Assembly: GCA_018398765.1 (NCBI GenBank) | Contig: JAHBMJ010005772.1 | Coordinates: 1-31,030 of the forward strand | Source of the DNA: Chromera velia | Lineage: Eukaryota > Sar > Chromeraceae | DNA: 31,030 nt | Reading direction: 5' to 3' | Shown here: positions 11,571-30,561 of the stretch, piece by piece | How the letters are laid out: every line of letters starts with the position of its first letter | Numbering within the stretch: position 1 is the first letter of the stretch | Notes under the pieces: generated by a model | Database searches by the model: none | What the model saw: the letters and a program-made list of their open reading frames with translations, nothing else | What the model was told of the DNA's origin: nothing | Program-made: the position numbers and the translations under genes

Positions 11571-14500
11571 TGAGAGAGAGAGAGAGAGAAAGAGAGAGAG
11601 ACTGCGGGGACGGTGCCGTACACAAGAGCGTCGATAGCTGAGAAACAGAAGGCTGGCGGACATCGAAGACTCCCACAAACGTAATCTACAGAAACCAATG
11701 ATAGGCAGCTGTTCCCGACTCCCCTCCGTTCATGCTGTTAGGCCATTCGCTTTCCATCACTTTGATGAAACTCATGCGCTGACTTGCTCATTGAGGTTCA
11801 GTCATTCATTCATTTTCTTACGTTTTCTTCGCAATGAGGACGCAGCAGGAGTGCTTGTGCTCGCATGCCACTTCATACTCTGACTGGAGGTCCGCGTCGA
11901 TGCTTACGAGAGAATTGCAGAAATTCAGTACCTGCATTCGTCCCGAAACCATGCATGCCTCACCAACATGAGACTTGTCCCAAATGCACTCACAAATGGA
12001 TTTGGAGAGCTCGGGTGGGTGCGTGGAAAAAGATTCGGTCCATGCGAATTCGATCGAACCTCTGACAGGAAGGCGGATTGTCAGTACTGACAGGAAGGAA
12101 AGGAAATCTTCATCAGTCTCTTGCCATTTTCTCAGGCCACCCAGAATGTCAGAACACCTCCTTTTGCGGGCAAACACTGTGACTGCCATGATGAACAAAT
12201 GCCACTCTGATTGCCTTCTTGAAACTCCCCCGAATTCTTTGACTTCAAACGTTATTCACACCGCAGGTCGGTCCTCATCACCAGATGTGATGACCGAAAA
12301 TAGGGCATTAAGCACAGTCCGAGAGCAAGACAGAAAAGAAGAACATTTCAAACAGACAGGGACTGACTCTCTCTTCCGACCGACCTCTTCATGCCAGGGA
12401 ACGTTCTTCATCGTCAGGTCCGACCCCTTCGAGGTCCCACAGAACGTCACTGCCTTGACTTCAATCAGATCGGGGTACCCTTCCTTCACCAGGGATGCGT
12501 ACCTTCTCAGCTCCTCCGCATCCTCGCCGTTCTCTGACATATTATACTGCAAGCGGTTTCATCCGTTCATTCACTCATTTACGAAGTTTGCAAATCAAAC
12601 CGGTCCCCGACGTGTGCCACATGCAGCATGCAGAAAGGAAACAGACAGAACACCGAGCCTGGATCTGACGATGTGTTCGTCACCAAAGCTGGAGGACGGA
12701 GGCACTACCGGAGAGAGAGCGCATTCATCGCGATCGAACAAATGAAGAGAGAAGCCTCCAAAGAGACAACTGAGCTACCGTTCGATGCCCTGGTCTGGCT
12801 GAATGTATGCACGTACCTGTTTGACAAGGGTCAATCTGTAGACAGTCCTCTGTCTCTTTTCCTTCAGGGCCCGCAAACAGCGGACAAATCTTTCCCAGAA
12901 GTCCGAAAACAGAGGGCGATCCACCGCCTTGAGGGACTCAGCCGTCGGGGCGTCAACCGAAACGTACAGCTGCGTGACGGGACGAAGGTTCTCAATCGCC
13001 TCGGGGAACTGGGCATTGGTCACCTGCACACACACACACCCATTCGATCAGGCAACAGTCAGTCACACGACTTGTCGATCATTGATACTTTCTATGCCTT
13101 CTCTCATGGACGGTCATACAAAGATCTTCTCATCCCATGTAGCAAAAAGGGAAAGGAGGGAACCGTCGATAGACACAAGAGAACGTGACTGGGCACTTGG
13201 CAACCAGTGTGTGAGAGAAGGACGGAGCAGGTTCCACCAAGTGAACACCAAATGCGTCTTTGCAAAGGCTTAAAGCAGCAGAGTAGCAGGTCAAGTTCAG
13301 GCGGTGAGCGATCCTTCCCACTTCCTTCCGACTGCGACCGCACTGGTTTTCAACTCTGAGGTCGACAAAAGAAAGCATACTCTTCCGAAACGATGAGAAA
13401 GAATCAGAAATAAACTCAAGAAACACAGAATCTGAGAGAACGACAGAGAGCTACACGTATCAATCAGACAGACAGACAGGCAGACAGACAAGGCTGTCAT
13501 TTTCCATTTCTTCCTCAGAATGAGTGGGCGGGAGCTTTCATTTCAGATTGCCGCCTGACCAGGAAGGACGAGATCTGTTCCTTGTGCAGTTCAGAGATCA
13601 GCTCGTTGATCTGGGGGTACATGATGGGCTCTCCGACAAGAGACAAGGCGCAGTGCTTTACCTTCTGCGCAGCCTCAAATCTTTCCGGGGTCACTCCGGG
13701 AACTCCTGAAAGAAAAGAAAGAAAACACGACGGCGCACCGGTATGTTAGCAGAGAGAGGGATGAGTACGCATCCGTCTGTAAAGAGCTATTCTGAGATCA
13801 TTCTTGTGGCTCCGAAAATAAGTGAGGGGACAAGGGGGGCCTCAGCAGTTCGTTCGAAGAGGAAGTAAGGAATCGCAACAGAAAGCAGAAACCTCGCTCG
13901 TTCTGGCACTATTGTTGTTCTTGCGAGCTATGGGGAACGGCTTGCAAGTCAACATGCAGGTACGCAGCCACCCACGCACTCACCCTTGAGCATTTTGATC
14001 ATCGCTGCATGTTTGTCGAGAGCCTCTCTCACGATTTGGTCTGCCGGGTCCATCTGCCACCTCCACTCCCTCCCCACCGGGTTTTTGTGGTGCCGCCAGC
14101 AGAACACACACCTGCATGCACACACCCTCAACGGAAGAGGGGGAAATTATGCTTCGTCACGGGAACGCGTCTTTCTTCGATTGCCAACAGCCTATCTGGG
14201 GTGGGGGAAGAAAAGGTGTTCACAAACTCTTTAACTTAAGGTTGCCGCAGAGGGTCACGTACCCACTACAAAATATGAAACAACAGAAACGATCAGAATC
14301 CTTTGAATCACTACGCTCATGTGCACTCACTTGTTTGCGCACGCAAGAGAAGGTGTCGCCTCCATGCAAGACAGAGAAGCAATTCCGTAGAAACTGTGCT
14401 TGTAGCAGCCCCCCCTTCCCCTCAGATGGTGTTTTGTCCATCTGCAAAGCTTGACAGCTGAGTGGGATCCAATCAATTTGTATCCTTCCTTCGTCAGTTG

Positions 14501-15412
14501 CTGCCGGTGTCTCTCCGTCACCATTGCAGGTTTCTCCTTGACCCGAATCTGACCGTCTCCACCCTCACCCTCCTCCTCCCTTCCTCGAAGATCTTCCACG
14601 TCGACAAAACTACCGTCTCCGTCTCCATCCTCCTCGTCGTCGTAGTCAGACTCGGAAGCTGACGAAGACCCATCGGACAATGCATCCCCTTTTTCCACTC
14701 CCACAGTCTCGGTGGCTCCACTCTTGTCAAGCCCGGAAGGCGACAAAGACGAAGCACAGCCACACGAATTCCCCACCTGATCCTTTCCACCTCCCCCGCC
14801 ACAACATCCGACCTCCTCCGTCTCCACCTGCTTTAGGCCCGAACCCTTCATCCCCTCCAGAGCGTTGACAAAAGCAGCTCTCCAACCCCGCATCTGCCCC
14901 TCAATGCTGTCTGTGTCCGTCACTTTCAAGAGAGGAACCACCCGCCTTGCTGACAGTGACGCCAACCACGAATCCAGTTCCCCAGCACACCTACAGAAGT
15001 TAGATTGATACTCAATGCTTCCAAACCCGACAACAGCAAAGGACAGCTTCTGTAGGAATGTTTTGTCGTATCTGAAGTCGAAGACAGCTTCTCCGAGATC
15101 AACAAAGAACTGTTTGCATGACGGGACGGGTTCCCCCCCCTCATAAGTCGAGACGAGGAAAACTACGAACCTCTTGGAGGGAAGATCGATATCGAACTGG
15201 AGATCAGAAAGATTCAAAACGTCTACCTTGCACACGCCAGAAGCCTCCAGAAATCTGCCCAAGCTCTCAGCTTCAGTCTTTGTATTCCCTGTGTAGGAAG
15301 CGTAGATCACAGTCACCAACGGCAATTCCACACTCCCGTCTCCACATCCGTCACCTTGAACCTGCCGCTCCCTCAGGGTGGCATGAAGCCGGGGATCCAG
15401 GTAACGGAACAT
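10363..15412 (-). CDS. TYW1: tRNA 4-demethylwyosine synthase TYW1 (9 exons)
   Basis: TYW1 is a radical-SAM flavoprotein that, in known members, condenses N1-methylguanosine-37 of tRNA-Phe with pyruvate to make the wyosine tricycle. Exons: 15412-14331, 14111-13984, 13705-13560, 13023-12817, 12546-12385, 11931-11822, 11388-11327 (or -11331), 10846-10743 and 10447-10363 (TAA). All phases match, giving about 693 residues, close to the human enzyme. Exon 1 holds a flavodoxin domain (VIYASYTGNTKTEAESLG, then VVFLVSTYEGGEPVPSCKQF), an acidic linker ending DVEDLRGREEE, and the start of the radical-SAM domain (GSHSAVKLCRWTKHHLRGRG). The Fe-S motif CANKCVFC (CxxxCxxC) is split by intron 1. Later landmarks are CALSLVGEPIMYP, FLVTNAQFPEAI, YVSVDAPT, VPWHEE, YEVACEHKHSCC and GSEERGFDPQDSR. 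The exon 7/8 junction is ambiguous by a few residues. The ATG at 15412 is the first after an in-frame TAG; an in-frame 27-codon frame lies upstream. The animal-type N-terminal membrane helix is absent. Confidence 0.96.
10859..10897. repeat. CA microsatellite in TYW1 intron 7
   Basis: A nearly pure CA run just upstream (in transcript sense) of the exon 8 acceptor region. Confidence 0.9.
11458..11601. repeat. CT-GT-AG symmetric microsatellite in TYW1 intron 6
   Basis: A (CT) arm at 11458-11485 and an (AG) arm at 11572-11601 are mutually complementary and flank a GT-rich centre with GCATG interruptions. The whole can fold as a long hairpin in either strand or in pre-mRNA. Confidence 0.9.
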
Positions 15413-15907
15413 CCTTTGTTCGGCTTCCTTTCCTTCCCTCAATTTCACCTCCAGCTACGGTTCAACTGTACGTAAGGCGACTGCTCTCTTCCCCTCGTCC
15501 GCTGCTTCTGCTTCGGTCCTTTTGGGACGCGGCTGCATGATCACGAAAATCGGTTATCTCTGCGATTCTAAGGATTAATTCGCGGCTATATTCGGCTATT
15601 GGTTCGCGTTGCCATGACCTCGATTGCCGTCTCCGGCCGTCCGTTGTTGAAACACGTTGAAACTTTTTTTTTTCTCAACTGAACTCGCCATCTGAAAGTG
15701 CGTCCCGACCCGTCTATGTGTGACACTTTGCGACCTGACTCTTCAAGCCGTCCACAGTCCTGAGGGTTTGTTCTCGACATGTACGAATGAAGCGTCGGAA
15801 GCAAGGGAAGCCAAATCAGAAGACTGAAACTTGACCGGGAGGCCCCGTCGCCCTGCCTACCTTCTTTTCGTTTGCTCAGCATATACTTCTGTTCGTTTTC
15901 TCTTAAG
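15413..15907. promoter_or_regulatory. Shared TYW1/TBL2 head-to-head promoter interval
   Basis: The starts of TYW1 (minus, 15412) and the TBL2-like gene (plus, 15908) are only 495 bp apart, so this interval must hold both 5' UTRs and both promoters. It is not AT-rich, unlike the 3' intergenic blocks. An ATTGG (inverted CCAAT) lies at 15598-15602 and an A/T tract near 15665-15673. No TATA element is obvious. A 98-codon minus-strand open frame (15586-15882) has no similarity I recognise and is probably chance. Confidence 0.6.
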
Positions 15908-17345
15908 ATGATTGTTCCTCTTGCTATCGTTGTGGCACTTGGTGCGATTTTTGCTGGGGCCTGGTTGCTTCTCTTCTCACCAAGTAAGCCATTGCTTTCC
16001 CTGTGCTTTTCTGACGTAAACCAAGACTCCTTCTGATATCAAGTGTGCCTGTCAGAATTCGCAGGCAGACCTTGCAGTCGGCAATTTAAGCTCAGTGAAA
16101 GAGAACGGAGAAACTGGGAAAGGGGGGTCCTGAAACGAAGACTGTCTTGTGCCGTGGCTGCAATAATGATACATGCTCTTCTTCCACACATCCCCCCTTG
16201 ATAATGCTGCACGTTGTCGCTATTTCATTTCCTTCTGCTGCTGTGCCTCTCGGCAGTTTCTCTTAGCCTTCCCCCCAAAAGTTAGGCTAGCAGGGAAGCT
16301 ATAAAGGAAATTGGAAGAGAGTCAGGAAAATCAAGGTGCAGATGGGAGCGCTTTTTTTTTTCTGTCAACCTTTTCGCCTTGCGTGCAGAGACGGGAACTG
16401 GCGGGAAGAAAGCAGGAGACGCCAACAAAGAGGGAAATTCAGGAGGCAAGACGGACGCCAAAACTTCAGGAGCCCAACAGCAGAAAAAGGGGAGCCAGAA
16501 AGTTGACATGAAGCTTCTCCAAGCAAAGGCAAAAAAGGCAGCTGCTGTTCTTGAAAAAACCATCGACCATCCCCTTTTCCTGGGCGCCCTGAAGGGAGTC
16601 AACAACCCCATTGAGAGCGTCGCAGTGTCCCCTGACAGCCAGAAGATTGCAGTGGCATCTTCCGAACGCGTCTTGCGTGTCTACCGTCTGAAAGGCCCTG
16701 CCGAAGAGGCCATGAAGGGTCCTATTGACTTTGACCGTCTGACCATGCCCGGGTCTGACTATCCGGCTTTGCTGGACTTCACGACTGACTCGTCCTCTTT
16801 GGCTGTGGTGTCAGAGGGTGAGCAGCGTCTGGTGATGTTTGATCTGGGGAAGCCTCCGAAGCTCTCTTTCCACTCGAAGGATGCGTTGCACAAGGGAAAC
16901 GTCAAATGGATCGTCGCATCCAAAGGTCAGTCAGTCAGGAAAGAAAAAAAAGGGAATATTCCGTGTGGGTCCGGGTGTGATTCCAAGAAGTGACCTGACT
17001 GTTCAACGTTAAGTGGAAGACCACGACAAGGGATCGGAAGCCATCTACACAGAAAGTCGGATGGGACCGTAGAAGAGGGTAGAGAGGAGAAAGTGCCTGT
17101 GTTTGTGTTTCTGAGGTCAACGCTTTTGGTCATACACCTGATCGATTTTTGCGTTCTCCCTTTCTACCTTCTTGCTGTACGTCCCGGCCCTCCTTTATGT
17201 CTGCATTGCTGCGTCTCGGATGGCCAGAAGGGTCTGTGTACGTCTCCTTTCTGGGTGCTTCCTCCGTGCAGGAAGCTTTATCGTGACCTGCTCTGAGGGG
17301 AAGGACACGGAGGTCCGTGTGTCTGCTTCTGTATCTGCATTTTTA

Positions 17346-22132: not shown

Positions 22133-24510
22133 CTATCGAAAAGGCCAGCATCCACAACAGCCTCCTGTTTTTTCCGTCCCCTTCTTTCCTTTGTCAGGTG
22201 CAGACTGCGCCAGCAGCTCCCCTCCGTTCATTCGGTGTTGCGATGGAGTTTCTTGGTCTTCCCGGCGTTCAGTCCAGGCGCCCTGCTCCCTCTGGTGCCC
22301 CTGCGAGGTTGAGAGATCTAATCCTGGGGGTGTCCTGGGGGCGTCTGAGCTCTGAGCAGGGTGGAGGGGACGCGGCTTGGTCGCCGTCTGTGGAGCACAC
22401 GCACCCATGATCGGTTGCTTGATTATCCTTCGGGAACTTCCGCCCCCGTGTCTCGGAGAAGCCCCTTGCCCCTGCGCCTCTCGATCTCTCTCCGGGGCTC
22501 CACGCGGCTGTACTGACGTCGCGCAGTGCTGGTCATAAGGGACCATGTGAGCAACTACTGCTGCCGTGTCGACTGAAGTTGTCTGCGAAAGAGAGTACCG
22601 TCCCCCCGACGAGTAGGTGTCCAGTTGTCCCGGCAGTCGGGCCACGGTTCCCCCCTGGAGGGGCGTCACCGATCGCCGACGCCCCCTGATGGGGGGTCTC
22701 GGAACTGTCGGTGGCTTCCGGTGGGCTGCAAGGCGATCGATCGAGGGGCATGCATGCGTGAGCGGGGCAGGACTGACGCTGTGGGTGGCAGAGTATTCGT
22801 TCGTATGCGTGGGAACAAGGTAGAGAAGGCAGAAGGTGATTCAGCTGGGCGCTCCAGAAAAGAAAAGAAAAGCACAGAAGAGGAGAGGAAAGAGGAGCGC
22901 ATTCCTCGTTGACCCTGAAGGTTTCATACACACGAAACTTAGACGCATACGTACATTCACACAGCCGTGCGTGAAGTCAACATATGAAAAGAAACGGATT
23001 CCAGACGTCAATCGATTACAGACATTCACGAGATGGAGAAGCAAGTGGTGTACTTTTCCCCTCTTTCTTGCTTGCTGACTTGCTCTTTTGTTAGACTTCT
23101 CCAGAGGACACAGCTGGATGTTCTGGAATATGTCGATAAAGTCTCCGTACTCCATCCAGAAGGTGCCATCCTCGTCGTCACTCCACAACTTCTGCATGGG
23201 GGGGGCCGTCCGTCCATTCAGCCATCCCTCGATCGATTGTAAGCATACGATTCAATTAAGGTGCTGACCTGTTTCTCTCTCCCCCCGCCCCCTTCCTTTC
23301 CCTTCTTCTCTCTTCCCTTTTCTCTTTCCGGAGAGGAGCTGTCACTCTTGTACCACGTGGCATGTAGGGCAGGAGAGAGGGAGAAACGGAGACAGGAGGG
23401 AAAGGCGGTAAGAAAGAAAAAAGGAACTCAGAAAGGAAAATCCGCAGACGGATTCACGGAGGGGTACAGTAACCGACAGACAGGCAAACACACGGACGTT
23501 ATCGTAGTCAAACACACAAAAGATGGTGGATCATTTTTTGGCCAACCCTGACACACTCCCGCCGTTTGTGTGACAAACCTGTCATTTGTCGACATCTTGA
23601 ACAAAGAATCAGCACAAAGAATAAGTGTCAACCCACTCACCTGTTGGACCTCAGGGTACCGATCCCACTCATCAGACGTCACAGAAAACCTGCCGATCCA
23701 CTCAGTCATCCCCCAGGGATTCCGAAGCTGCACCAGCCGCAACGGTTTGTTGTTCAGCCGAGTGGCTCTGGGGACTGTCGCCGCCCGCGTCCGGGGGGAC
23801 GCGAGGGAGGAGGAGGGCTGTGGCGGCGCCAGGTAGAGGGGGTTGGGGTCCTCGAATGTTCTGATGAAGGAGTACGCGTGGCCCTCCACCAACCCATCCT
23901 CTCTCTTCACCTCACCCCCTGTGCTCGACGTTCTGCTGGCAGCAAGGAGAAAATTCTCCTGCAGGCAGGTAGACACACGGGCAGGGTCATAGATAAGCGG
24001 ATGTTAACAAACAGCTTTCAAATTTTTCTGCGTTGCCTCTCTGACCTTTCTTGTATGAAGCGCATTGAATTCAGGGGAGGCCTTGCGGTCTGCCGAGTAC
24101 AAGATCGACCCAGTTTCTTGTACGTATTCTTGCACACTTAGACTGTTCACTCTCACAGAAAAGGTAGGAGAGCTGAGAATTCAAAGCAAGAGAGACTGTG
24201 TGAATAGAGTTGGGAAACACAAGCATGTGTATGACAGTCTGTCTGCAGGTCTCTGAAGGGCTTCTCTGCAGACCCGGTCCCAGTGCTACAATAAGATGAA
24301 GTCCAATAAGATGAAGTCCAATTAATGTTTTCTTTCATTCTTTTCCACAAAAACACACAGATTCATGTTATTGTTTTTCTGCAAAAGACCGAAGTTTGAT
24401 CGATCCCGTGCGCTCTTCTGTGCTGACCTGGTCCCAGTGCTTCAACAAAATGAAGAAGTCCGCCTTCGATACCTGTCTCTTGGTCGCTGCGGATATCCAC
24501 AAAGGGGGCA

Positions 24511-24601: not shown

Positions 24602-25668
24602 AGGACGGGCTAGAGGGTTGCTGCGAAGAGTAAAAGGGATAAAGAGTGGGCACCAGCGGAGAAAAGGAGAATAGAAATGCCAGAAGGGGAGAAGGGGCCC
24701 GCAAGTAAGGGGAAAAAATGCAAGGCCGGTGGGGAGAGAGGGCAAGGAGAGAAATGAAGGCGGGGAGCTTCTGCAAAGCAGACATGCAAACAGACACGCA
24801 TTTCTAAGCGTGAAAGAAAAAGTGAGGAAAAATCCAAACGGGAAGGCAGTATCACGGCAGACAGTAGGCGACTGACGACGAGAGAAGAGTTTCTTCAAAT
24901 TTCGAGGATTTTGCTTCAGCCATGTCAGTTGGACTTCTTTCTCGAACATCGTGGCGTGGGGAGTGGAGCTCCAGATGAACTACACGCAATTCAGTCAGGA
25001 AGGGGGAAAACAATACAACAACAAGCATGACCACGGATGAGAAAAGAGAAACATCAAACGTGTGAAAAGAGACCTAGCGAAAAAAGAAGCAAAGTACGCT
25101 TGCGCAAACTTGGTTTGAGACACACAACAGACCGGCACAAAGCACAACGGTGAAGAAAGAGAGACATAGAGAGACAGACAGAGAGAGAGCACAGACCTGT
25201 TGTTCGACTCCTGTAAGGCACTGGAATCCGTATGGAGAGTGACATCCTGCAGTGAGTGCATTTGGGTAGTCAGTCGAGGAAGAGGGAGATCAGAAACAGG
25301 GCAGCAAAGAGGTCTTAGAAAGAAAAGACAGCTCACTGCAAGATGCTGAGCTGCTGCAAATAAAATGCGAGTCGACCTGCGTCCACAGCATGACGAGACC
25401 ATAGAAATAGAAAGACGAAAAAGAGGCACTCCCATTCTACCCGCGTTGCCATGACACACCCTGTCGTGCCGTGCAGGTCGGCATGCATCAACTGCCTCAA
25501 TAGGAAAGAGTGCCACAGAATGCAGATGGAAAGAGGGTGAATGCAGACAGAACTTGTCTATGTGATTACAGAAGAAGAAGAGGCAAAATACCAAAAGTAC
25601 AGTAGGCCCTGTTGGCTCTTTTTGTACGTTTTCATTCGATCGAGGCACTGCACTCTCTCTCCGTTCCT

Positions 25669-25700
<32 letters not shown>

Positions 25701-28397
25701 CAGTCAATCAAGGCACTCACCCCTGAGTTCCTTCCTTCTCTCTCTCTCTCTCCAGTCAATCAAGGCACTCACCCCTGAGTTCCTTCCTTCTCTCTCTCTC
25801 TCTCTCCAGTCAATCAAGGCACTCACCCCTGAGTTCCTTCCTTCTTTCTCTCTCTCTCCAGTCAATCAAGGCACTCACCCCTGAGTTCCTTCCTTCTCTC
25901 TCTCTCTCGCCAGTCAATCAAGGCACTCACCCCTGAGTTCCTTCCTTCCTTCTCTCTCTCTCTCCAGTCAATCAAGGCACTCACCCCTGAGTTCCGAGTA
26001 CCCCCCGCAGAACTTTGCGAATGCTTTTTCGAGAAGAAGTGGCCTGCATTCAGTCAGCAGAAAAGAGCGATAAAGTCACGCTGATTGATTGGACCAGTCC
26101 GTGCTGAACGCGCGGCAACAGCCTCACTTTGAATCCATGCGCGACCAAAGAAGACAGGCCAGCAAGTACAATGAAAAGAAAACACCGAGGAGCAAGCGAA
26201 CCACTGATTCTACTGACGGCCTTGATTGAGTATTTGAATTTTTTTCTCTTTCTAAAGAGAAATTTGGTTGACACCCTTCCTTTCTCGAGTGGAAAAGGCC
26301 GGAGCGAAAACGGCTTGACAACTGGCAGAGAACACACACAGAGGAAAAATAGAGGGAGGAAGAAGAAGGTCCACAAGGCATGGGACGAAGAGACGCTCCA
26401 ATATGCACCGCGTACCAAAGTTCGTTTCCCTGAGGCTTTGTGAAGAGAGGTACTCCCCCTCTTTGCCACCTGCAAAGAAAGGAATAACAGGCAGAATACA
26501 GACGGGTCCTCGTCTGCTATCCCTGAGAACTTTTTTCAAATTGACTTGCGTACTCTGTTACTCCTTGCCTCCCCCGGTGCCTTCTTCGTTTGGTTTTAGT
26601 GCGTGCGTCTCTCCTCAAATGCGCTCTCTTTCCGTCCTTGTCTCTGTCGATCGGTCGGCCGGTCGGTCTGTCTGTCTGTCTGTCTGTCTGTCTGGAGAAG
26701 AAACATATAGTCTGTCTGTCTGTTTGTCTCTTTGTGTCTTCTGTATCGGTCAGAAACCATCTTGGCAGCTTGCCTATTCCTTTCCACTCACACCCCTTGG
26801 CAGGCATGCCTATTCCTTTCCACTCACACAGCACGTGTTCCACTCATCCACCGTCTTGCCCTGTTTGTGTTTTGACACCTTCAAGAATTCTTCAAGGAAG
26901 AGCTGATGCCTCCCTCGACCCCTCGTCACTTCGTGGTTTTCTTTTGAACGCACTAGCTCACCATTTTTTGGGCAGACACGGAATGAAGTCGTCGATGACC
27001 AGGGTTACCCACTGCCCGATCGCGACGTCGTACAGACGTATGGCGTACTTCCCCTCTCTGCTGAACCGTTTGGTCTCGAAAAGATTCTCGATCTTCCCCG
27101 GAAACTCAGCGACGCACGCAAGCGCAGCGATCAACCAGCAGTTGCCAAGTTGCCTGCAGCAAACACGAAATGCAGTGACCACAAGGAAGAGGGGAGAAAA
27201 GTACACAGGATTGGATTCACGCGCCATACCATCGAAGCGCATCATGAAGCAGACAGCCAACAGACCTATTTTGTGTGTGGGGGGGTGTTGTACAGTTCAC
27301 GGAGAAGTACACCATACGCCAATTTCGGGTATTGCATCAACAGAGTCACACACAGAATGACAAGGTTTTCCGTTCTCAAGACTTTTTATATCTAGTTTCC
27401 CTTCCCTCAGATCGATTTCTAAGTTCTGGTTCGCCGGCTCCCTCCTCTTTTCCTTTACACGTTTCCACGTTTTCCCTTTCTATGCCGTTTTCTTTCCCGT
27501 TTGCCTGCAGTTTTGATTCTCGCGCATGAGCACTGACTGACCCTTGCCTGAGGTCTGCTGGGTTGATCTCGTCGAAGAGTTTGTTCATTCGGGTGTCCCC
27601 GTTGGAGTTGGAGACTGCCAGATGAGAGGCTGCATGCACATGTTTTAAGTATCCCATCTTGGATTTTAAAGTCGTTTCCGTCTTTTATTGTGTTTGTCTC
27701 TCGCAAAGCTGTCGATGTGCTCCAGCTCAGTCCATCCTTTCAACGTACGAACACCCCCTCCAGCCCGTTAGGAATGGGCCTTCCGATGGTGTTCGGGGGG
27801 CGAAATCTCGTTGACTTCTACGCGTTGACATTAATGGTCGACAGATGTTCTTCTCTCTTGACAGCATTCTGAGTCAGTGACGTGCTCTTTAATCTCTCTT
27901 TGCTCGACCTTTTCACAGCGTAACAGATTTTCTCTTTTTCTCTTTTGAGTCCTCCCTTCCACTCGCTGGATAAAAGTACCGGAGTGTTTTAGTTTGTTCT
28001 TTCGTGCCTCACTTGCGCACTGCATCAAATCGTATAAACGAAAGGAGATAGACGTGTCGGCTGACGGACCTCGAATCCATTCTCTTTCTGCAAATCTCTC
28101 GACGCACGCAGGCCCCAGAGAAGCGTCTGAGGCAGGGAACTCAGGGTCAGAGAAGAACTCCACGTTCTCGAAATTGGGCTCTCGGATTTTTATTCGAGCA
28201 CCCTCATGGAGTTTCTTCTCCCCTGCAGGCAGGCAGGCACGCTCTCTCAAAAGAATAAAAAGAAAGGAAGATAGAAATGCACCCGCAGACAGGCAAGGAC
28301 AGAAGAAAAGAAGGAAGTACGGAGGGAAGGGAAGGGAAGGGAAGAAAGAAAGAAAGAAAGAAAGAAAGACAGACAGACAGACAGACAGACACACACA

Positions 28398-28444
<47 letters not shown>

Positions 28445-29428
28445 AAGAAAGAAGGAAAGAAAGAAAGAAAACAGAGAAGTGTGACCAGACACTTTCAGAA
28501 ACGATTCAATGCAAAGCAAAAGACACGATGCAAAAGAGGAAGTGAATTGCAGTTCCATTATTTGGAATTCCTTTGCTTAACTCCTCTCCTGTCTCTCTTT
28601 TTCGAGCAATCGAGAGAGAGTTCCACAGTCCATTTCCTTCATTCAGCTCATGCGGCCGCCGCCTGTTGGAAGAAAAAGAGACAGTAGAAACGATGACCTG
28701 AGAAGTAAACTTGATTCCACCCTCTCAACAAAACCAAAAGAGGTCGTCGATTTCACAAACAAACAGAGAAAAACCGACCAAAAACGTCTTCGAATATCAG
28801 CCCTCCATCGCAGTTTCTCCTCACTCTCCTGCAAAATTATTGCAAACCATCAAAGAGCGCAAGCCGATAGGCTGGAACAGCTGTTGAAGATTAGTGGTCG
28901 ACAAGCATCCTTTTCTCCCCAACCGTCTCTCCGCTTCCGCATAAGCAAACGTAAGATAGAAGATAGTTTTGACAGATGTAGAGCTCGTATCAGTAGAGAC
29001 AGATGACGGCATTCATGCAAAGATGCAGGCTGCCAAGCAAAACGGAGACACACTCACAGATGAACAAAAAGTCTGCGTAAACAAATGCATCACAGGCTGA
29101 CAAGCAGAAGGAGCGCAACAAAAAGACCAATCAAGATCCCAACAAGCAAACAAAGTGTCAAGATATTCATTCACTCACCAGGCGTGCCCTGCGAGAGACC
29201 TCAAAGTGAACGTCTGGTTTTTGTTCAAACTTCCTTGGAAGACCTCATGTCCCCCTCCATCTACCCAGAAAACGTCCACCTTCAGATCGCACCTGCGGAA
29301 TGGCACAGAAACACCATGAGACAGAGAAGACACAGAGAAAGAAAAAAAGATATTCAGAGAGACAGCAGATCCATCAAACATGAATCAGATTTGTCCCTCT
29401 CCCCCGTTTCCTCAGGACACGATTCAGT

Positions 29429-29464
<36 letters not shown>

Positions 29465-29737
29465 AGAAGAAGAAGAAGAAGAAGAAGAAGAGAGCCAGAC
29501 GCACGGACAGTCTCGACGCATGGAGCAATGCTTTTTTCTCGATCCTCATAGATCCCCTCCCCTGCAGGCACTCCTCCGCTTGCTTGAGTGTCAACACAGG
29601 ACGACAGCCCAAGGACAAGGACTCTCTTGGTGATGCACTTTGAGGTCTCTTGGACAGAGAGACATACACACACACGCACGGACACAGACATACGCAGAGA
29701 GTGAGAGAGACAGAGAAAGAGAGAGAAAGATAGATAA

Positions 29738-29768
<31 letters not shown>

Positions 29769-30561
29769 AAGAGAGAGAGAGGTGTGACCCTATAGAAACA
29801 CCGGGGTGATTGCCGACTGACCTGTTCACGAGAGTCGCGCTCATGTCCCTCCCAAGGTCTTCGCTTCTCAAGTCTCCCGTGGCCACTAAATCTGCATTTT
29901 GGTTTGTTCATTTGAAGGGAGCACCACACGCAAATCATGAACACTGACAGACAGACTCACATGGAGAAAACAGGGGCAGGGAGGAGGCCTGAGTTATACA
30001 ACGAGGTCGCACAAAGATGCAACCATGCCTCCACAATAGAGGCCCCCCCCGGCTCCCAGAAATACATCCTCCCACTAGCCAGTCCATTAGTCCATCTCCC
30101 TCTCCCCCATCCAACCGCTGACCGACCGACCGTTGTCCTGTCCCTCCTCATACGCAACCACACGGAACGATGGATCGGGTCTGCACACCTTCGCCTCCAC
30201 GTCCATTGCTTCCCAAACAACACCAATCTGCACACGGGCAGGCCGGCTTGAGTCTCTGGTTGTTGTTTTTTTTTCGGGCTCGCGCGATAAGAAAAAGACA
30301 AAGAACGCGAGAGGCAGCCACAATAGAAGAAGCTGAAGTGACTTTACGGTTGAGGCAACCGCCTCTGAAGTCAGTCAGAGGGCCTGTCCCCCTGCCCTCC
30401 TCTCTCTTGCTTATTCCCCAAACAAAGTTAAATCACGAGAAGAAGAACGGGAGAGGTGAACGATAGAAGCGAAAAAGAGAAGAAGACCAGAGCAAAGAGG
30501 CCGACCTCCAGAGGGGTCACCGCAAGCATGTCGTATGCCAAAGCAAAATGGCCCCCTTCCC
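22133..30561 (-). CDS. Calpain-type cysteine protease with VHL beta-like domain (5' partial, 16 exons seen)
   Basis: Exons: 30561-30506, 30227-30131, 29891-29822, 29292-29179, 28828-28779, 28222-28070, 27629-27542, 27153-26962, 26469-26416, 26043-25985, 25246-25197, 24979-24877, 24486-24428, 23958-23641, 23191-23080 and 22725-22133 (TAG). Phases agree at every join; about 722 residues are visible. The first exon opens with a split codon, so the 5' end lies upstream, probably beyond the right edge. In order: an unassigned segment (IGVVWEAMDVEAKV), a VHL beta-like domain (LVNR, FWVDGGGHEVF, RSLAGHAWRVR), the calpain lead-in (FFSDPEFPASDASLG, EREWIR) and the papain-fold core. The catalytic Cys is in QLGNCWLIAALACVAEF, His in GLVEGHAYSF and Asn in LVQLRNPWGMTEWIG, so an active protease is expected. 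PLLLEKAFAKFCGGYSELRG and DEDGTFWMEYGDFIDIF are typical calpain blocks. The last exon gives a basic, disordered tail ending CCGCWPFR; its join is the least certain (the alternative donor at 23097 gives a shorter tail in another frame). Confidence 0.9.
24261..24319 (-). repeat. Decayed copy of a calpain exon end and its splice donor
   Basis: In the intron after exon 24486-24428, the minus strand again reads a stretch close to the exon end (AGCACTGGGACC then GGGTCTGC, against exon AGCACTGGGACC then AGGTCAGC). The adjoining GGACTTCATCTTATT is itself duplicated in tandem (15-bp units 24290-24304 and 24305-24319). Confidence 0.75.
24513..24602. repeat. GT then GA microsatellites in calpain intron
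   Basis: A GT run (about 24511-24536) and a GA run (about 24570-24601) lie just upstream, in transcript sense, of the acceptor of exon 24486-24428. Confidence 0.9.
25701..26000 (-). repeat. Six-copy tandem array built from an exon end plus its 5' splice site
   Basis: On the plus strand CAGTCAATCAAGGCACTCAC begins at 25701, 25753, 25807, 25859, 25911 and 25965, a period of 52-54 bp. Read on the minus strand each unit is GGAACTCAGGGGTGAGTGCC followed by TTGATTGACTGG and a GA run. The right-most unit is the genuine end of calpain exon 26043-25985 (CTC AGG G, then GTGAGT). The other five are intronic copies, each with the last coding bases and a perfect GTGAGT donor. Confidence 0.93.
26667..26730. 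repeat. CTGT tetranucleotide arrays in calpain intron
   Basis: Two CTGT runs separated by GGAGAAGAAACATATAGT, in the intron after exon 27153-26962. The separator plus the second run resembles TBL2 intron sequence at 18628-18655. Confidence 0.85.
26771..26829. repeat. 36-bp tandem duplication in calpain intron
   Basis: TGCCTATTCCTTTCCACTCA plus CAC occurs at 26771-26793 and again at 26807-26829. On the coding strand each copy contains GTGTGAGTGG, a donor-like word. Confidence 0.85.
28321..28470. repeat. Composite GGGAA/AAAG/ACAG/AC/GA/AAAG microsatellite
   Basis: About 150 bp of purine-rich tracts change unit every 20-40 bp, in the calpain intron upstream (transcript sense) of exon 28222-28070. 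On the coding strand it is a long pyrimidine tract. Confidence 0.9.
29430..29490. repeat. GA then GAA microsatellite
   Basis: A GA run followed by (GAA)n in the calpain intron between exons 29891-29822 and 29292-29179. Confidence 0.9.
29660..29781. repeat. CA/GA-rich microsatellite region
   Basis: Short CA and long GA tracts with A and T interruptions, in the same calpain intron as the GA/GAA array. Confidence 0.85.

Follow-up and report, generated by a model that had tools for sequence, protein, structure and literature searches.

VHL is known for passing hydroxylated proteins to a ubiquitin ligase. Calpain proteases usually cut in a limited fashion (PMC10038992), and the main text of a 2012 survey counts 41 calpain architectures with 24 added domain types (PMC3563603). 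The terms VHL and Hippel are absent from the main text of that survey and of two later calpain papers (PMC13413365, PMC10762896). Full-text literature searches, with most subscription papers outside their scope, found no published description of a VHL-calpain fusion. Here we describe such a fusion in Chromera velia, encoded in a window by which we mean the whole analysed stretch of 31,030 nucleotides (contig JAHBMJ010005772.1, forward strand, of assembly GCA_018398765.1, which has 178 Mb in 4040 contigs).

In this gene a domain related in sequence to VHL is joined in frame to a calpain core whose catalytic residues are intact. One other protein, P0002, an open reading frame (ORF) derived from an MMETSP transcript, carries repeat modules, VHL-type domain and calpain core in the same order within a single ORF; it differs in having Lys at the position of human Y98 and no long C-terminal tail. 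The VHL-calpain fusion is a new calpain architecture. The explanation we favour, with a probability of about 0.6, is a non-classical calpain with a homologue of the VHL beta domain placed between an N-terminal repeat module and the core, where it acts as a recognition or docking module.

Structure of the fusion gene

The gene was modelled on the minus strand as 16 exons running from 30561 to 22133, separated by 15 introns that are all GT-AG, and the joined frame is open over 721 residues. Exon borders were set to keep the frame open, with two proteins as guides: P0002 and the UniRef counterpart of the gene, P0001 (769 amino acids, Chromera velia CCMP2878, named 'Calpain catalytic domain-containing protein'). 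Residues 1-154 of the joined exon query are 100% identical to P0001, and the refined model equals P0001 from residue 118 onward. Residues 1-117 of P0001 lie outside the window, as the gene runs upstream past its edge; the next 9 kb past that edge, which are partly N, yielded neither a convincing counterpart of the P0001 N-terminus nor the start of the gene. Since P0001 leaves out three exons (26469-26416, 25246-25197 and 24979-24877), all of which comparison with P0002 supports as completing the calpain domain, the public model is, judged by this comparison, not reliable in detail. Two stretches of our first gene model (MGYLKHVHA.. and GGRLAFYLQQLSILQ) were dropped after comparison with P0002. 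The exons, all placed by the gene model, are the following.

30506..30561, minus: first exon inside the window, end of the N-terminal repeat module (EGGHFALAYDMLAVTPLE); GT-AG, in phase
30131..30227, minus: exon IGVVWEAMDVEAKVCRPDPSFRVVAYEEGQDN, linker preceding the VHL-like domain
29822..29891, minus: exon encoding the VHL-like domain's first strand (..DMSATLVNR), the N78 counterpart being P0001 N190 by alignment
29179..29292, minus: exon with most of the VHL-like domain (CDLKVDVFWVDGGGHEVFQGSLNKNQTFTLRSLAGHAW), by alignment and predicted structure; the counterparts of W88, Y98, S111, H115 and W117 are P0001 W200, Q210, S223, H227 and W229
28779..28828, minus: exon RVRRNCDGGLIFEDVF, which encodes later strands of the same domain (predicted strands 228-233 and 239-244)
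28070..28222, minus: exon that runs from the last part of the VHL-like region (GEKKLHEGARIKIREP) into the calpain start (FSDPEFPASDASLG..EWIR), also by Pfam
27542..27629, minus: calpain exon ASHLAVSNSNGDTRMNKLFDEINPADLRQG
26962..27153, minus: calpain exon with the catalytic Cys (QLGNCWLIAAL), its column invariant in the alignment
26416..26469, minus: calpain exon WQRGGVPLFTKPQGNEL, absent from P0001, matched by P0002
25985..26043, minus: calpain exon PLLLEKAFAKFCGGYSELR
25197..25246, minus: calpain exon CHSPYGFQCLTGVEQQ, absent from P0001, matched by P0002
24877..24979, minus: calpain exon FIWSSTPHATMFEKEVQLTWLKQNPRNLKKLFSR, absent from P0001, matched by P0002
24428..24486, minus: calpain exon TKRQVSKADFFILLKHWDQ
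23641..23958, minus: calpain exon that carries both the catalytic His (EGHAYS) and the catalytic Asn (RNPWG), by alignment
23080..23191, minus: final calpain-domain exon (KLWSDDEDGTFWMEYGDFIDIFQNIQLCP)
22133..22725, minus: C-terminal tail ending in GGCCGCWPFR and a stop, with no Pfam match and low confidence in the predicted structure

A preliminary description of this DNA, made from its letters, had placed a VHL beta-type domain in three exons (29891-29822, 29292-29179 and 28828-28779) fused to a calpain. These exons are exact in position, have GT-AG borders, and join in phase both with each other and with the calpain exon that follows (28222-28070). The extent of 28779..29891 given there holds for these three exons and falls short of the gene, which reaches further on both sides: upstream through 30227-30131 and 30561-30506 to the part coding for P0001 1-117, and downstream through the calpain exons and the tail to 22133.

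The calpain core matches PF00648 with 171.8 bits against a cut-off of 23.8. Cys331, His456 and Asn509 of P0001 stand in columns that are invariant over 28 aligned calpains, and nothing pointed to an inactive enzyme. The Pfam match begins at P0001 residue 269, 23 residues past the aligned VHL region, and no VHL alpha domain with an elongin C (BC) box follows the VHL-type domain, in agreement with the earlier statement that the elongin-recruiting part is missing. The BC-box-like stretch SLGPACVERF at the calpain start was rejected as a candidate; it is not kept in P0002. The C2-like domain and penta-EF-hand that follow the core in classical calpains were not found: P0001 has no other Pfam family at an E-value limit of 10, and the tail was modelled with low confidence.

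Two other Chromera calpains, P0003 and P0006, resemble the window protein in having a core over the cut-off, a conserved triad and the same kind of N-terminal repeat modules, but the alignment shows nothing of VHL type ahead of their cores, and neither of them significantly matches the VHL profile described below. The genome holds 77 exon-level calpain-domain matches at E<=0.1, a large calpain family for this alga. The repeat module (like NGGY.RL...GRPAY....LYLYF...W.IG) precedes the core in P0001 (residues 1-160; window 30561-30131), P0002, P0003, P0006 and P0008 and is common to many of these calpains; Pfam scans of four complete proteins (P0001, P0002, P0003 and P0006) left it unmatched. 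Calpains P0006, P0008, P0015 and P0030 end in CVVQ, CTIM, CALM and CSVM, which resemble CaaX-type lipidation motifs. The window protein ends in CCGCWPFR, with Cys present and no CaaX.

The VHL-type domain and its relatives

The window domain aligns to human VHL without gaps over 58 columns, about twice the roughly 30 residues first noticed, and N78, W88, G93, L101, S111, G114, H115, W117 and R120 of human VHL are all matched in register, including the eight from W88 onward already proposed. At human positions 78/88/93/98/101/111/114/115/117/120 the residues are N, W, G, Q, L, S, G, H, W and R in the window, confirming the early remark that Y98 is replaced by Gln, and N, W, G, K, I, S, G, H, W and R in P0002. 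The domains of the two fusions are 38% identical, with GHAWRVRR as their longest identical run. The P0002 domain aligns to human VHL with a score of 69, reached by 0 of 5000 shuffles, and VHL is its best Pfam family, with an E-value of 0.012 that is under the cut-off.

A further relative came from a two-sequence alignment scan of genome_contigs, which represents 84,980 prokaryote species by one genome each. Among 108 pattern matches there was one relative, L040, in a metagenome-assembled genome of Candidatus Poribacteria. It matches the Pfam VHL family over the cut-off (6.6e-8, 32.9 bits versus 21), and the window domain aligns to it with a score of 77, which none of 5000 shuffles reached (shuffle maximum 53). 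Because the window domain formed part of the query that found L040, selection accounts for some of the likeness of L040 to the window, but not for its Pfam match. A scan of viral_contigs gave 25 pattern matches and no relative.

A profile built from human VHL and L040 only was compared with the best 120 of 229 calpain matches. It found P0002 at 1.7e-7 and P0001 at 1.1e-5, the next protein standing at 0.66, so that two calpains among these 120 have a significant match. The VHL profile relationship received a probability of 86% in hhalign. A predicted beta sandwich aligns to pVHL 68-139, and in Foldseek searches with models of both fusions the first PDB matches other than calpains are pVHL chains; the fold is thus predicted to be a VHL-like beta sandwich, as the preliminary description would have it. 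According to these comparisons the domain is homologous to the VHL beta domain (PF01847). Compared with human pVHL, it differs in lacking a following alpha domain, in being missed by the Pfam profile and in being joined to a protease.

P0002 is probably not a Chromera gene: when the Chromera assembly was searched with its domain, the sole candidate was the exon in the window, at 26% identity. Region-limited searches at the protein level each recovered a single fusion, P0001 or P0002; their word filter missed even this related pair, so a lack of further fusions does not follow from them. In a FastTree phylogeny of 106 catalytic domains, built without the 14 of those 120 proteins that lacked a motif or were short pieces, P0001 pairs with P0006 (0.773) within a clade that includes P0003 and P0002 (0.905). 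P0006 and P0003 have no significant VHL match. The domain may have been lost in P0003 and P0006, the branch order may be wrong, or the domain may have been gained twice.

Recognition module and alternative explanations

We infer a docking role because the domain lies directly before the core, GHAWRVRR is identical in both fusions and the elongin-binding alpha domain is missing. The VHL-type domain would dock a partner or substrate peptide, possibly with the same face as VHL, and present it to the attached core, which would then make limited proteolytic cuts. The preliminary description spoke of a degradation device, which overstates the case, since calpains usually make limited cuts (PMC10038992).

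Several observations weigh against this reading. The Pfam scan of the window protein gave no PF01847 match at E-value limits of 1 and 10, although HMMER filters discard most matches above about 0.1. The gathering cut-off of 21 bits is also not reached by P0002 (13.0 bits for the whole protein, 16.0 for the domain alone), and a PDB sequence search with the window domain returned no VHL match. Its alignment to human VHL scores 36, a value equalled or beaten by 49 of 5000 shuffles, so that the resemblance of the window domain taken on its own is marginal. In the predicted structure, a de novo designed protein scores equally well by VIA-align. With four of the five pocket residues kept in both fusions (W88, S111, H115 and W117), Y98 is lost. 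Finally, P0001 is itself a prediction without three exons that P0002 supports, no Chromera transcript came to light, and with borders chosen for an open frame under the guidance of P0001 and P0002 the phases are not fully independent evidence.

If prediction had merged two separate genes, one with the VHL-type exons and one with the calpain, the points on the gene model would be accounted for. Against this stand the 15 GT-AG introns with consistent phase across the VHL-calpain junction and the transcript-derived P0002, which has the same order in one ORF, and we regard such an artefact as very unlikely. Even less probable, with only a slim chance, is convergence on a small beta sandwich that merely resembles VHL: the missing Pfam match and the designed protein would fit it, but the VHL profile test, the register kept without gaps against both human and bacterial VHL, and the rank of pVHL directly after the calpains in Foldseek for both models argue otherwise. 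The VHL match is secure because of the relatives and the structure prediction, and not by the window sequence alone. The earlier judgement that the domain match is strong therefore does not hold for the window by itself and holds once these are counted; likewise, the profile search proposed as a check, taken literally, went against the claim for the window protein, while it gave a sub-threshold VHL match for P0002 and a calpain match over the cut-off. Other sub-threshold matches (CooT and SSU81, and Bys1 and PH_alsin for the P0002 domain) were set aside as chance, and a PF01847 search of the whole Chromera genome without any match is uninformative, as its controls likewise gave none.

The domain might instead be a beta sandwich without ligand pocket function, a structural or regulatory flank of the core concerned with stability, autoinhibition or dimerisation, comparable to the C2-like domain (C2L), which has a regulatory role in classical calpains. 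The domain does adjoin the core and has lost Y98, and C2L is standard in classical calpains (PMC3563603); however, the order given there (Nter-CysPc-C2L-PEF) places C2L after the core, whereas the VHL-type domain precedes it, and a passive flank would not need the identical GHAWRVRR. This explanation is unlikely, if the least so of the alternatives.

Hydroxyproline binding was also part of the original proposal. A prolyl hydroxylase would mark a protein under oxygen, the VHL-type domain would bind the mark and the core would cut, without elongin, cullin or ubiquitin. Both fusions keep, in register, W88, S111, H115 and W117, which together with Y98 form the hydroxyproline pocket. Exon-level matches to 2OG-FeII_Oxy_3 number 12 in the genome at E<=0.01, 8 of them over the cut-off; this is circumstantial, and the substrates of this oxygenase family are of many kinds, which counts against the proposal. 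Chromerids are kin of apicomplexans. For one apicomplexan, Toxoplasma, prolyl-hydroxylase oxygen sensing (PHYa) has been reported (PMC11570480, PMC11192375). The main difficulty is Y98, named in PMC3688787 as directly binding the hydroxyproline of HIF: it is Gln or Lys in the fusions, whereas 29 of the 30 bacterial VHL domains compared have Tyr. In these 30 domains W88, H115 and W117 are invariant (30/30), with Thr at position 111 in 29 of them and Ser in the remaining one. They come from the top-scoring loci of a single phylum and are close relatives, and the counts lean to typical VHL. The same paper (PMC3688787) places W117 with F76, F119 and F136 in the core aromatic tetrahedron of pVHL; as a core-packing residue its conservation is weak evidence and no proof of binding. 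At positions 76 and 119 the window has Leu and Val and P0002 Ile and Val, so two core aromatics are lost. No hydroxylated partner is known. On these residues, hydroxyproline reading by the calpain fusion is possible but doubtful, and the original suggestion is so far unsupported. With Y98 gone from the pocket, a docking module of this kind could take a ligand other than hydroxyproline.

VHL domains and proteases in bacteria, and neighbouring ORFs

A VHL-containing hypothetical protein was reported earlier in another bacterium (PMC9002001), so bacterial VHL domains as such are already known. In the phylum of L040, Candidatus Poribacteria, VHL matches occur in 40 of the 84 genomes. Thirty loci (L041-L070) were fetched, and in 28 of them an open frame of 403-460 residues combines an HExxH motif (mostly ILVHEFAHAIHQMG) with a VHL domain near the C-terminus; the other two have longer frames with no HExxH motif within the fetched part. 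These HExxH proteins are putative metalloproteases; the metallopeptidase matches of L040 in Pfam are weak and sub-threshold (Peptidase_M90 0.0058, ATLF 0.012). They are like the fusions in carrying a VHL-type domain and a protease-like motif on one chain, and differ in the catalytic motif, in the C-terminal position of the VHL domain and in having Tyr at 98 and Thr at 111 in nearly all loci.

A VHL-type domain has thus been joined to a protease in the calpain lineage and apparently separately in the bacterial HExxH family, which suggests repeated use as a protease targeting module. It is conceivable, though improbable and the most speculative form of the idea, that the calpain is an oxygen-gated protease independent of ubiquitin, reading prolyl hydroxylation through a rebuilt pocket without Y98 and cutting directly, and that VHL-type domains began as protease targeting modules, the animal E3 receptor being a late special case. 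If the calpain version does read hydroxyproline, a single protein would link the sensing of oxygen to proteolysis; otherwise, the two lineages would be natural tests of a VHL pocket without Y98.

Two other open frames were noted in the window. On the minus strand, 14327-15454 holds a frame of 375 amino acids with a flavodoxin-like start and a KLCRWTKHHLRGRGGCYKHSFYGIASLSCMEATPSLACANK stretch, which we take to resemble the tRNA wybutosine enzyme TYW1. On the plus strand, the frame at 16286-16993 has weak beta-propeller matches under the curated cut-offs (PF10647 5.3e-4, PF23414 6.1e-4) and is perhaps part of a WD-repeat gene on that strand.
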